A stretch of 64,000 nt of DNA, from NCBI GenBank assembly GCA_027972325.1, contig JAPMOS010000160.1, positions 1 through 64,000 of the forward strand, in the 5' to 3' direction. A program made the translations under genes and the position numbers. The stretch comes from Paratrimastix pyriformis (taxonomy: Eukaryota; Preaxostyla; Paratrimastigidae). Shown here piece after piece: positions 406-54,745 of this stretch; position 1 is the stretch's first letter, and the number at the start of each line of letters is the position of its first letter. The notes under the pieces are model-generated. The model had not been told where the DNA came from. It searched no databases and saw only the letters and a list, made by a program, of their open reading frames with translations.

Positions 406-2092
406 AGAGTGGGGCCGCAAAGGGCGCATCTTCAGGACAGCCCAGAAGTGCAAGAATGCACTAGTGGTCATCAATGCTCAGACGGGAAATGGCGGAATAA
501 ATACGCAGACCATGCGGTGTGAAATGTCGGGTAGACTGGCCATGATAGCAATCTTGCAGCGTTACATCACGGCCAACATCAGATTCTACATCAATGGTGA
601 AGGGGATGGGAAATGTTGGTGTGGGGCGAGAGATTGTACAAACCATTTGGTTTTCGAATGCCCTTCGATGATGGGCAGTGTCGCGGAAAGGTGGAGTGGT
701 GCCAACGCGATCAAACTGATCGCGTGGCTGGAAAAGGGGGAAGGAGCAGAAGATGCAGAACAATTGCTCCAAGAAAAATGGGTGGAGCCTATGGGCCGCA
801 GCGTGCAGGTGAGAGGTAAGCAGATAGCGATGGACAGACTCTGGGAGCTCATCGAGCGATCGCGGGGGCGCTGGTACCGCGCCCGAACCTGGGACAGCTT
901 CTGGGAAACATTTTCAACAGAAGTGGCGAACCTGTGCGATCGGTACGCGGATGGAGTGAGCACGGAGATGGCAGAAGGCAGACCCACAAGAGCACCCTGC
1001 GAAACCAGTGGACGACCCCACGTGGTGTCCTCTCTGCTCAGACAAGCAGGCAGTTTGACAACGATGGCATTCTCGCATCCTGGGAATGCCGATTTGAGCT
1101 TCCCGAATTCAGAACACCCAGCAAAGATGATTGTTTTGGGTGGAAGACTGGATGGATATGGGCTGTTCAAGGAGAATCGTGACCTCCTCATCTTTGCCAA
1201 CCGGGAGTACAACCCCCAGGAAGAGATGGACCGATTATTTAAGGCAATTGGCGATTGGGCAGAGAGTCCAATGGGAAGAGCTGGGAAGAGAGCTTTCCGA
1301 TGCATCGCAATCGTCCCGTACGGGGTGGGTAAGCCCAACCGGACGCGGCCGGTGCAGGGAATGGAGGCGCAGCATGGCGTCGGATTGGCCTTGAGGGGGA
1401 CATGCGATTGAAGGAGCTGTTTATCATTGAGGAAGGGGGTTTCGGCTTCTGGCTGCCGAGCTTCTGGCGGACAGGGGAGAAAGGTGCGGGGAAGGCCCCG
1501 TTCGACGTGGGCATCCTGCTCTTTGAGAACCAGAGGGCCCGGGAGAGATTTCGATGGATCCTGCCCGTTGTGGGCTTTGGAGAATATGCTTCGGAAAGAG
1601 GCGGGTGCGCGGAAGGTGGAGGCTGACTACGAGGGGCGTCCGAAGGAGGGCGAGGTGCTCCACAACTGGAGGGATCTCAGAGGGGTGGTGCGGAAAGTTG
1701 CGGGAAGACTTCGGAGGCGGTGCGGATTTCGAGAGATGTACGCGAATGATTGCAGACTGGCAGCAGAGTTGGGGATTGTGGATGAAGACACCCAAAAGGA
1801 GATTGGGAGCGAAATTGGTGCACTCCGCAAAACCATGCTGCTGGCGATCATGCAACGAAAGAAGAACGAGAAAAATGAAGAAGGGATGAACGAGGAGACG
1901 TAGTCCGGCGGTGACCGTCCCTCGGGGACGGTAGCCGACCCATGGGCCTCTTGGGACGTCCCATCCTGCGAGTTTATCTCGCGGGGAGGGCGGACCGGGG
2001 GGTTCATGTTACCCGCGGGCTTCGGCCCGAGCACGGACCCGGCGAAAGCTGGGAAGTATCACACACACACACACACACACACACACACACGC
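406..2092 (+). mobile_element. 5'-truncated LINE, copy 1
   Basis: This is the 3' end of a non-LTR retrotransposon, matching the minus-strand copies at 32.4-39.8 and 54.7-64.0 kb. It starts inside the region after RNase H. It encodes the CCHC-like finger CWCGARDCTNHLVFEC (about 615-660), an alpha-helical linker, and a C-terminal domain with ANREYNPQEEM (about 1197-1230) that resembles PCIF1-type methyltransferases. The reading is continuous to about 1411 and then carries on in other frames to a stop near 1902, so the copy is frame-broken. A roughly 190-bp 3' UTR ends in a UUCG hairpin and (CA)n. 5' truncation with an intact 3' end is the usual result of target-primed insertion. Confidence 0.85.
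2005..2092 (+). repeat. LINE 3' terminal hairpin plus (CA)n tail
   Basis: CATGTTACCC (2005-2014) is followed by a 5-bp stem CGGGC / GCCCG closing a TTCG loop (2016-2029), then about 30 bases, then (CA)n from 2059 to 2090. The same arrangement ends the other LINE copies and some elements with unrelated bodies. It is probably the 3' recognition structure used by the LINE reverse transcriptase. Confidence 0.7.
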
Positions 2093-2665
2093 TGTGCCTG
2101 CTGCGCCCGCTCGTGCTACCTCGACGCCCGACCATGCTGCTACTTCCGCGCCTCCGAAGATTAGCCTCTCTGACCTCTCGCCTGTTGCCAACCGTGGGCC
2201 TTTGGGAAGGGAGCAACGCGCGTGGGGGTGGTGGATTCAGGGGCCAGTACGCCTGTCCTACCGAGGTGGTAGGTCATGGTGGATGGGTTCCGCCCCCCCC
2301 TCAGGCTGGGTTCGGGAATATTTTTCGTTCTAACTGTTCTTGTCTTTTGCTTCCGTCGCCCCCTTTCATTGTTCCTCGTGTCCTGTGTCTCAGTGTTGGA
2401 TCCTTTTGTCCCCCCCCTTGTCCCGGTCTTTCTTTTGATGTTCCTTCTGTTTGCTGTCAAGTGTTTGAACGATTCTGTTTCCTGGCGATATTCCAGTCTC
2501 TCTCTTTCCCGCCATGCCGTCTGTGCGCCTACCCCTGAGGGGGTGTAGGTCGGCATGTTACCCGCCGGTTTCGACCGGATTAACGGATTTTCTTCTGTTT
2601 CAGTTTTCTGTGTTTTGCGCGCAGTTACTGGCAGTCGAAATAGTATGACACACACACACACACAC
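2093..2665 (+). mobile_element. Second (CA)n-tailed element fragment, non-coding
   Basis: This lies between the (CA)n of LINE copy 1 and another (CA)n at 2648-2665. I see no convincing protein; the sequence is pyrimidine-rich on the plus strand. Near its 3' end it has CATGTTACCC (2554-2563) and a perfect 5-bp stem CCGGT / ACCGG with a TTCG loop (2565-2578). Body and hairpin stem differ from the LINE but the architecture is the same, so it is probably a truncated or non-autonomous element using the same machinery. Confidence 0.5.
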
Positions 2666-3054
2666 GGAACCTACGTCATCGAATTTGACGACCGGGTCAA
2701 GGCGGGCATTCCCAAGGTCTACGCGCGCAACAAGCTGCGGCCTTACGATGCCACCTTCGATGCCCCACTCCCTGCTGCGGGAGGCGCTCTGGTCCCCGTT
2801 GTTGATCGTCGGCGCCACCCCGCCGAATAAACCCCCAAACCCCTCCCCGCCCCCGTCCCCGTCACGCAGTTTTCCGGTCCGGTTTTCTGCAAAACAAAAT
2901 GATCTGGCAACACACGTGGGGGGGTTGAGTTGGGGGGTGGTGGTGGGGATGGGGTCGTAAGAGGAGAAAATGTGAATGCGTGCACGTCCACGCAGCCCCC
3001 CCCCCCCCCCCACCCCCACCCCCACCCCCACCCCCAACCCCCCCCCCCCCCCGT
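2666..3054. repeat. Intergenic stretch with poly-C / CCCCCA tract
   Basis: No gene is supported. The most obvious content is a C-rich tract (about 2994-3052) made of runs of C and CCCCCA units. Plus-strand reading around 2670-2830 (GTYVIEFDDRVKAGIP...) looks protein-like for about 50 codons after the (CA)n but has no identifiable family. Confidence 0.5.
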
Positions 3055-52639: not shown

Positions 52640-54660
52640 ATGTAAAGGGAAATCAATCCGGGGAAAACGGAGCGATGGTTTACACACCCTTGATGATGTG
52701 CTCGATAGTTTCACTGCCATCGCCCTCCAATGAGGCCTCCCCACTCCGCATGCATTCCCGCCGATCCCCGGGAGAAAGGTCTCCTCGGAATCCGGCAAAA
52801 GGAGGGGTGTCTCGATAAGCAATTTGCTCATCGTAGGGAACCACAACGCGCCCCTCCAGAGTGGGAGAATGAGCATCATCGTCGCTCGGTCCCGGATGAT
52901 TTTCCGAAGGACCCGTGCGATCTGATTGAACGGGGGATTCGCATACAACCGTTTGCGCCCCCAGTCCTGCGCGTAGGCATCGATCGCCTCCGCTTGAGGA
53001 TCCAGCCGCAGGGACCAGAACCTCGGGAGCTGAGCATTGGCCATCGTGGCAAACGCATCCAGCTCCGGCTGGAACGCCAGGGACTGGCAGGCCCACTCGA
53101 ATAACCGAGGGTTCAACTTCCAGTCCGAGTCGTCCCGCATCCTGCTGAGACGATCGGCATGCAGGTTTGTCACACCCGCAATGTGTTCCGGCACAATCCT
53201 GACACCCATTTGTTGCGTCTGTTCCCAGACTTCCAACAGCAACGGGTGAATGGCCTTGCTCCCCGTGTTCCAGTTCCTCACCGTCGCCACCGCAACGGTC
53301 GAGTCGCTCTGCCAGCGAACCACCGTCCCCCGAGGGAGGTGTTCGCGGAACGCACGGAGCGCCCACAGGAGTGCCGCAAGTTCGCGCCAGTTGATGTGCT
53401 TGTCGGTCTCCTGGAGGGCCTGCCTCCAGAAACCCCTCGCCTCCAAAGGCTTGGGTGACATTTCCAGCGCTGCCCCCCATGCCAGGTTGCTGGCATCGGT
53501 ATGGAGGGTCCTGGTGGGCCGAGGGTCCGTCGAAGCCATCCCGTTCAACGGGAGGTTCTGAACCCACCACTCCACCTCGTCCAGAGCCTCGCTGCTGAGC
53601 AGGCTCGTCCCGTCCCAACCCGACCTCTGCACGGCCCGCGCCTTGCAACGGTTCAAGTGGAACAGGTGGAGGTGTGCCGGCTCGATCGCCGGTCTGGTGG
53701 CAACCAAACAACCCACCAGTCGGGCCAGAAGGGCTGTCGAGATTGACGGCCTGCCCCTGACCTGTCCCAACAGTGACAGGATGCTCTCCACCCTCTCGGG
53801 TGGCAATGAGATTGTCATCTTGTTGGAGTCGAGGACGAACCCCAGAAAAACAATTTTCTGTGTTCCCACGAACACACATTTTTTCTCGGATATTGTGAAC
53901 CCGAGTTTGACGAACAGCTGCACAGCCCAAAGGGTGTGAAGCTGGGACTCCTCGCGGCTGCCGGCGAGAATAATTAAGTCGTCCAGGTAAGTGACACACC
54001 TGACGCCTTTGCGCCGAAGTTCCTCTATCACTGGTCTGAGGACCTTCGTGAATGTGAATGGCGCTAACTTTGTTCCAAACGGCATAGCAAGGGACACGAA
54101 GAATCGGTCCTGCCATTGGAAGGCCAGGAGATGCTGGGAATGTTCCTCGACGCGCAGATGCCAGTAGGCTTTCCGTAAGTCGAGTTTGCTCATAAAGTCG
54201 CCTTTGGCCATCAACAGGAGGGCATCGTGTATGCCCTCCATTTTGAAATGGACATCCGCCACGAATTGATTTGATGGCCGGCAGTCCAGTATAGGTCTGT
54301 AAGTTCCGTCTGGCTTCGTGACAGCAAATAACTGCTGCACTAGGAGCCCAGGCGTTTCCCGCGGCACTTCTTTGGCCGCTCCCAGATCTACCATTTCGGC
54401 AATCTCTAGGGCTACAGCCTGCGCTGCTTGAGCCGTGAGTGCCAGCGGGCGAAGTGCTGGAAAAAAAGGTTTGTCTGGTATCACCTCTTTCCGCACTTTG
54501 AACCCATGTTCGATAGTATCGAGGGCAAACGCCCTTGAGGGCGCCTGTAGCGCTTTCAACGCGTCCAGTTTTGCCAGTAATTTGTTTGGAAAAGATTCCA
54601 AAGCCTGTGTCTTTGAGCACTCTTCCCTCACTTTTGCAAGGAAAAAAGTCGAGCTCATCC
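52640..54660 (-). mobile_element. DIRS-like retrotransposon: RT, RNase H, methyltransferase
   Basis: Fossil, minus strand, looking largely whole over these domains: reverse transcriptase (KPDGTYRPILDCRPSN, SKLDLRKAYWHL, PFGTKLAPFTF, catalytic TYLDDLIILA), RNase H (LHTDASNLAWGAAL, INWRELAALLWALRAF, HADRLS) and the DIRS-type methyltransferase-like domain (ELDAFATMANAQLPRFWS, YANPPFNQ). No gag-like gene, tyrosine recombinase or terminal repeats were identified next to it, so the element is incomplete. One end abuts the (CA)n tail of LINE copy 3, the other lies just upstream of the leucine-rich-repeat gene. Confidence 0.85.
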
Positions 54661-54668
54661 TCGCAACC

Positions 54669-54745
54669 GTGTGTGTGTGTGTGTGTGTGATACTTCCCGG
54701 CTTACGCCGAGTCCGTTATCGGGCCGAAGCCCGCGGGTAACATAG
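54669..54745 (-). repeat. LINE copy 3 3' terminal hairpin plus (CA)n
   Basis: Minus strand: ATGTTACCC, CGGGC / GCCCG stem with TTCG loop (about 54719-54732), then (CA)n at 54669-54688. Nearly identical to 32442-32530. Confidence 0.8.

Follow-up and report, generated by a model that had tools for sequence, protein, structure and literature searches.

A LINE and four protein-coding element families without reverse transcriptase share a two-hairpin 3' tail in Paratrimastix pyriformis

In maize and sorghum, short and long interspersed elements (SINEs and LINEs; ZmSINE2 and ZmSINE3 with LINE1-1_ZM) share a 3' hairpin in which stem changes are compensated and the letters of the loop and flanks are fixed, Chlamydomonas SINEX-3_CR and L1-1_CR are a stringent-type SINE/LINE pair, and LINEs of algae with (CA)n and (CAA)n ends are listed as well (PMC3747384). 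The proteins encoded by the second open reading frame (ORF), ORF2, of the zebrafish LINEs ZfL2-1 and ZfL2-2 bind their cognate stem-loop (PMC4176376), and HeT-A, which is found with TART and TAHRE at Drosophila telomeres, is described as having no reverse transcriptase (RT; PMC5537684). Here we describe a related arrangement in Paratrimastix pyriformis, in which an 8.6-kb LINE (LINE A) and four families of ~1.4-kb elements (B to E), each encoding one protein without RT, have a common 3' tail through which the ORF2 protein of LINE A probably mobilizes all five. LINE A and families B, C, and D lie in the window analyzed here, a stretch of 64,000 nucleotides (positions 1-64000 of contig C69) of the 56.06-Mb assembly, which has 495 contigs. 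P. pyriformis is a free-living, anaerobic flagellate of Preaxostyla. A literature search in a limited collection found no paper on Paratrimastix and retrotransposons, and 'transpos' has 0 occurrences in the available main text of the genome paper (PMC10703272).

The sequence-only reading of the window had pointed to six copies of a 3' signature, and all six are present, each with a perfect 5-bp stem and a TTCG loop. They were re-placed at 2005-2029, 2554-2578, and 25145-25169 on the plus strand and at 28805-28783, 32524-32500, and 54744-54720 on the minus strand. The sites at 2005, 32524, and 54744 all lie in copies of LINE A, the same LINE as had been suggested, and carry the stem CGGGC/GCCCG; those at 2554, 25145, and 28805 carry CCGGT/ACCGG, CCGGC/GCCGG, and CCCAC/GTGGG, respectively. 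As a correction to the earlier description, the copy at 28805 is short of two Cs, so that the stem already includes the final C of CATGTTACCC. A (CA)n repeat follows five of the six sites, as had been noted, either immediately (2060-2090, 32469-32441, and below 54700) or at more distance (~70 nt on, near 2648, and ~70 nt beyond the hairpin, at 28716), the exception being the copy at 25145, which has a decayed tail only. Genome-wide, the pattern ATGTTACCCN{3,9}TTCG has 394 matches (200 and 194 by strand), the sites starting with ATGTTACCC before TTCG, and a chance origin is excluded by the reversed control, which gave a single match. Exact 22-mers account for 161 A and 119 B sites, and C, D, and variants make up the other 114 of the 394. 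A fifth variant (ATYTTACCC) adds the 39 sites of family E (also exact 22-mer matches), which lie outside the window; the reversed controls of the 22-mers gave 0 matches. About 40 of the 433 signature sites were read at the sequence level. A covariance model of the 25-position core retrieved 41 sites at 22 bits or more from 27 sequence stretches (272 kb), most of which had been picked for bearing the signature; the next scores were 14.6 bits, for a decayed B tail, and then 10.3 bits or lower.

From 5' to 3', the tails of all five families follow one plan: first a long hairpin, which ends in CAUG (CAUY in E), next the invariant UUACCC, then a UUCG hairpin with a 5-bp stem, and, beyond a spacer, GUAU-NACACA repeats. 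Folding places the CATG before TTACCC in a pair with an upstream CATG (GATG in E), which closes a hairpin of 60-70 nt (HP1); the UUCG hairpin (HP2) lies 3' of HP1 and TTACCC. Of 28 distinct core sequences, 19 leave TTACCC wholly unpaired, and nine pair one to four of its letters. In 12 hand-made rows, 96.5% of the cells of the tail pair, compared with 21-46% for slid partners, and both partners have changed in 8 of the 12 pairs, a value reached by 1 of 500 shuffles. The covariation that had been read from the stem letters of the six sites is thus borne out, as pairing is kept. Folding was also stronger than in shuffled sequences for A (z = -5.3 and -3.6 in two copies), C (z = -2.8), and D (z = -4.6). 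GTAT precedes the tail repeats in 36 of 39 sites. The repeat unit depends on the family: A, C, and D carry (CA)n with some mixed units, E carries (CA)n or (CACG)n, and 7 of 10 B copies carry (CAA)n. At the opposite end, LINE A and all of B to E start with CCCGG, and D and A open with an identical CCCGGGGT. B to E therefore have a 3' structure in common with a LINE, as stringent-type partners do, and the likeness to stringent SINE/LINE pairs extends to the variable but compensated stem, the fixed loop and flank letters, and the short-repeat tails. Unlike those pairs, the elements described here have a two-hairpin tail with UUACCC, a shared 5' start, and a Preaxostyla host. UUAC was also considered as the pseudoknot partner of a GUAA loop in the third hairpin of LINE A, an idea that was dropped because this loop is GAAA or GCAA in other LINE A copies.

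The bodies upstream of the tail are separate. Using up to 8 kb of same-strand sequence upstream of 36 distinct sites (12 A, 10 B, 8 C, and 6 D; E was not in the set), blastn (E 1e-10) aligned every site within its own family only. Recurrent 5' ends were found near -1370 (B), -1400 (C), and -1312 (D) relative to ATGTTACCC, and 5'-truncated copies also occur. Family E, which was found by a protein profile, has ATTTTACCC or ATCTTACCC with GCCGGC-TTCG-GCCGG, and its ORF starts 1229-1321 bp upstream on the same strand in 28 of the 39 E hairpins of the genome. Copies of B to E are spread over many contigs. Comparison of hairpin types with upstream bodies, the check proposed with the sequence-only reading, thus gave several body families that carry the hairpin, each type with its own body genome-wide.

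The full-length ORFs encode proteins of 362 (B), 388 (C), and 371 amino acids (D) with an N-terminal domain of ~120 residues, a low-complexity middle, and a C-terminal motif of ~65 residues. Pairwise local alignments of the B, C, and D proteins gave 25-36% identity (E 9e-5 to 1.5e-11), and the codon-aligned N termini of B to E are 24-32% identical. The description of the non-LINE bodies as unrelated is therefore accurate for their DNA but not for their proteins, which are homologous. No Pfam family above cut-off and no RT was found in the B-E proteins, and the B/C/D profile reached an E value of 0.15 at best against the ORF1 frames of LINE A (blastp, 1.3 or worse). All 51 relatives of the B/C/D protein were from P. 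pyriformis (PAPYR_) among 7985 candidates scored, and none from another species appeared in that protein search. Among the matches listed, 28 C copies have an identical 137-residue N terminus, which indicates that the amplification of C is recent. For the N-terminal part, the ratio of non-synonymous to synonymous rates (dN/dS) was 0.27 between two C copies (9 synonymous and 9 non-synonymous changes), and two D copies (2 and 3, respectively) gave 0.40; it was 0.19 to 0.83 in the stretch that follows and 0.3-0.5 between families where computable, near saturation. These values lend modest support to selection on the B-E proteins. A reading of the WYVG motif at the C terminus of the D protein as a GIY-YIG nuclease was dropped, as no Pfam match was obtained, and an AlphaFold model of the C-family protein (six rows) with a mean pLDDT of 41 was not used.

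An Rfam scan that covered the window (D) and the stretches L041, L037, L051, L049, and L050 (B, C, E, and D) gave no match to any Rfam family at gathering score, and thus none to an RNA polymerase III-derived SINE head (tRNA, 5S, or 7SL). B to E are not SINEs: no such head was detected in them, and they are ~1.4 kb and coding rather than short and non-coding, which sets them apart from the partners in stringent SINE/LINE pairs, as does their conserved protein. Their protein may be a gag/ORF1-like RNA-binding protein. Like HeT-A as described, B to E would then be RT-less elements of the type without long terminal repeats (non-LTR), with a single gag-like gene and dependent on the RT of a partner. 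Unlike HeT-A, they form four families, share their tail with the putative RT donor, had no gag zinc knuckle that we could find, and were not seen to target telomeres, telomere distance being left unexamined. The mammalian HAL1 (half-L1) codes for an ORF1-type protein only, is moved by a LINE, and derives from L1 ORF1, whereas the B-E proteins have no detectable similarity to LINE A ORF1.

The window contains one copy each of B, C, and D. The B copy is 5'-truncated (2092..2665, plus strand; homologous to full-length B from -463), with the signature CCGGT-TTCG-ACCGG at 2554..2578, and the C copy (24891..25212, plus strand; homologous to full-length C from -255) is 5'-truncated with a decayed tail and has CCGGC-TTCG-GCCGG at 25145..25169. 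The D copy is full-length (28687..30116, minus strand), with a (CA)n tail at 28716-28687, the signature CCCAC-TTCG-GTGGG, two Cs short, at 28783..28805, and a 16-bp low-complexity repeat, CCCCTGCCCCTGCCCC, on both flanks. Its ORF (28764..30059, minus strand; ATG at 30059) has a C-terminal frame unlike that of intact copies; its N-terminal domain (30059-29694) is identical in 14 copies among the matches listed.

LINE A has two ORFs, ORF1 and ORF2, and the latter encodes the APE endonuclease, RT, and RNase H domains. RVT_1 was matched at E 8e-32 on L056, an open stretch of 1666 amino acids, and at 2.8e-20 on L047. APE reaches 20.7 bits on L056, below the cut-off of 24.5, and APE (PF03372) stands above cut-off ~1.9 kb upstream of RT matches on the same strand in contigs C127, C115, C444, C477, C488, and C77, among others. 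With RT, an upstream APE, truncated copies, a repeat tail, and target-site duplication, LINE A is an APE-type non-LTR retrotransposon. Outside P. pyriformis, the nearest database relative of its APE-RT part is a metagenomic protein that shares 42% identity; others share 22-28%. ORF1 recurs in the genome (best 150 of 168 candidates scored), and 31 of 62 typed ORF1 matches are followed on the same strand by an RT match at a distance of 4.6-6.7 kb. At its 5' end, LINE A reads CCCGGGGTCGAG, where three of three copies cease matching.

The full-length copy of the window (32441..41065, minus strand) has its 5' end at 41065 and a (CA)n tail at 32469-32441, and it is homologous to other copies throughout, although its frames are broken. 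An end near 39470 at a CCCCCGGGG was rejected because homology runs on upstream. The 5' untranslated and ORF1 region (40106..41065, minus strand) is a decayed frame of which the piece 40753-40157 served as the query; no Pfam family was matched in this region. The broken ORF2 region (32633..39323, minus strand) holds a weak ubiquitin-hydrolase-like stretch, APE, RT, RNase H (E 2.7e-16), and a Cys/His motif read by eye, and the signature, TATGTTACCC with CGGGC-TTCG-GCCCG, lies at 32500..32524 on the minus strand. That stretch, APE, and RT were matched on L056, the homologous open frame, where the ubiquitin-hydrolase-like stretch (residues 353-416, N-terminal in ORF2) has 17.9 bits against a cut-off of 23.9. 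L058, which had been taken as a second LINE 5' region, gave no alignment to the LINE A 5' region. A 5'-truncated copy (422..2090, plus strand; homologous to 34109-32441) carries its signature at 2005..2029 and a (CA)n tail at 2060-2090. A further copy is split by a Gypsy-type insertion (55554-59798, plus strand; RT, RNase H, and integrase zinc domain) into a 3' part (54669..55416, minus strand; signature at 54720..54744) and an RT/RNase H part in pieces (60211..64000, minus strand) that runs past the window end. Elsewhere, L033:1346-1420 (plus strand) is a lone LINE A tail insertion of ~75-80 nt with the UUCG hairpin, the third hairpin, and (CA)n.

Among 17 full-length B-E copies with both flanks, 13 have an exact flank match of at least 9 bp (9-16 bp), one of which is low-complexity and two of which lie within duplicated flanks. 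Mismatched flanks gave such a match in 2 of 272 pairs, the number expected from the two duplicated-flank copies alone. A truncated LINE A at C18:14357 has an 11-bp duplication. These target-site duplications, together with 5' truncation, point to target-primed insertion. The 5' flanks of the elements are not CA repeats, and (CA)n is therefore part of the element rather than of the target. The idea that template ends prime on pre-existing CA repeats thus fails, as does insertion into such repeats: the elements are flanked by duplicated targets and finish in a reiterated end of their own, be it (CA)n, (CAA)n, or (CACG)n. At 422-2665, the truncated LINE A and the truncated B stand end to end, the (CA)n of the former stopping at 2090 and the latter starting at 2092; this junction may have arisen by insertion at the tail or by a template jump from one RNA to another.

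The sequence-only reading had taken the hairpin for an RT recognition structure shared by autonomous and non-autonomous elements. The sharing is observed, as the covarying 3' structure is carried by a LINE and several RT-less families; recognition by RT is its best explanation, by analogy with stringent-type LINEs. B to E would be RT-less, protein-coding, non-autonomous retrotransposons whose RNA the LINE A RT binds at the tail and moves in trans. The ORF2 protein would recognize the invariant linker and loop letters, and the shape of the stem rather than its sequence. It would then nick the target and reverse-transcribe the RNA from its end, slippage reiterating CA or CAA, which would leave target-site duplications and 5'-truncated copies. 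That the LINE's own ORF2 protein would recognize a 3' stem-loop is proposed here by analogy with ZfL2-1 and ZfL2-2; their structure differs, and whereas the zebrafish LINEs are strictly cognate as described, one RT would here accept five stems. Several findings weigh against this explanation. When downstream sequence is included, G residues there can pair with the CCC of UUACCC in A, C, and D, which makes a single-stranded UUACCC uncertain. The covariation rows were made from predicted arms and are hence biased toward structure. For HP1 of B, folding shows no advantage over shuffled sequences (z = -0.87; 38 of 200). Of the 28 distinct sequences, two lack HP1 (s11, which is truncated, and, in the short frame, s25) and two have it partly broken (s3 and s6); HP2 is decayed in s28. 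No duplication was seen in 4 of the 17 full-length B-E copies or at the full-length LINE A of the window. Finally, stem letters and tail repeats are family-specific, B being mostly (CAA)n, and a different RT might accordingly serve each family.

That last point, and the presence of further LINE families with 48-56% RT identity, would fit a scheme in which LINE A mobilizes no element but itself, the short families each rely on a separate LINE, and the structure was inherited from an ancestor that several LINEs have in common. However, 36 of 100 A hairpins have an RT match (best 150 of 165) in the 6 kb upstream (32 of them at 3.2-4.0 kb; downstream control 3), whereas B and E hairpins do not exceed the control (4 of 100 B, control 7; 2 of 39 E, control 1), the 100 A and 100 B hairpins being among the matches listed. 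Moreover, the LINE family L054 (56% identity) has no TTACCC..TTCG in 2 kb of 3' sequence, in the one copy read of at least four, and we regard separate partners as unlikely. Another explanation is that the shared structure is a signal for RNA processing, stability, or export and that RT requires only a CA-type end. Some other 3'-end formation would indeed be needed, as the tails are not poly(A), and a severely truncated LINE tail retained just the UUCG hairpin and the downstream part. However, the structure adjoins the reverse-transcribed end and is common to a LINE and its companions, which is the published pattern of RT recognition (PMC3747384); both roles may hold, but a signal role in place of recognition is improbable. 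Common descent alone, in which B to E derive from a LINE, took up a foreign ORF, and passively kept both LINE ends, would account for the shared ends and the identical CCCGGGGT start of D and A but is very improbable, since passive descent does not explain stems that diverged while pairing held, and the 28 C copies noted above are recent and therefore still mobilized.

L054 (C190:485600-487600, minus strand) has other TTCG hairpins in its 3' region, a telomere-like AACCCTAACCCTAACG, and a weak PCIF1_WW match in its C-terminal part (E 0.0009, below cut-off). In the window, 51038-54658 (minus strand) encodes a 1207-residue ORF that matches RT, an RNase H-like domain, and, weakly, Dam methylase; a broken stretch at 3117-3416 is related to it. 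The segments 19970-22045 and 25674-27756 are a near-identical duplication with ~5.7-kb spacing whose encoded protein has no Pfam match, and two adjoining ORFs (265 and 281 residues) at 48922-50567 (minus strand) are AT-rich and Asn/Ile-rich, unlike the remaining window.

The proposed mechanism, in which a LINE would move RT-less elements through a common tail, is of a known kind; what is new lies in the conserved protein that the partners encode, the shared 5' start, the two-hairpin UUACCC tail, and the host lineage. Sharing of a LINE tail is known mainly from non-coding SINEs, whereas here at least four RT-less families with homologous proteins share both ends with one LINE. Because the five natural tails separate what is kept (UUACCC, UUCG, and the CAUG end) from what is free, the RNA code that the LINE RT would read is directly testable. 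Retention of a protein by RT-less elements raises the question of cooperation versus parasitism. A cooperative system is a tentative possibility, in which the LINE would give endonuclease and RT, at least four families would give an RNA-binding, coat-like protein that serves the whole group in trans, LINE A included, and the shared 5' start and 3' RNA badge would admit every transcript.

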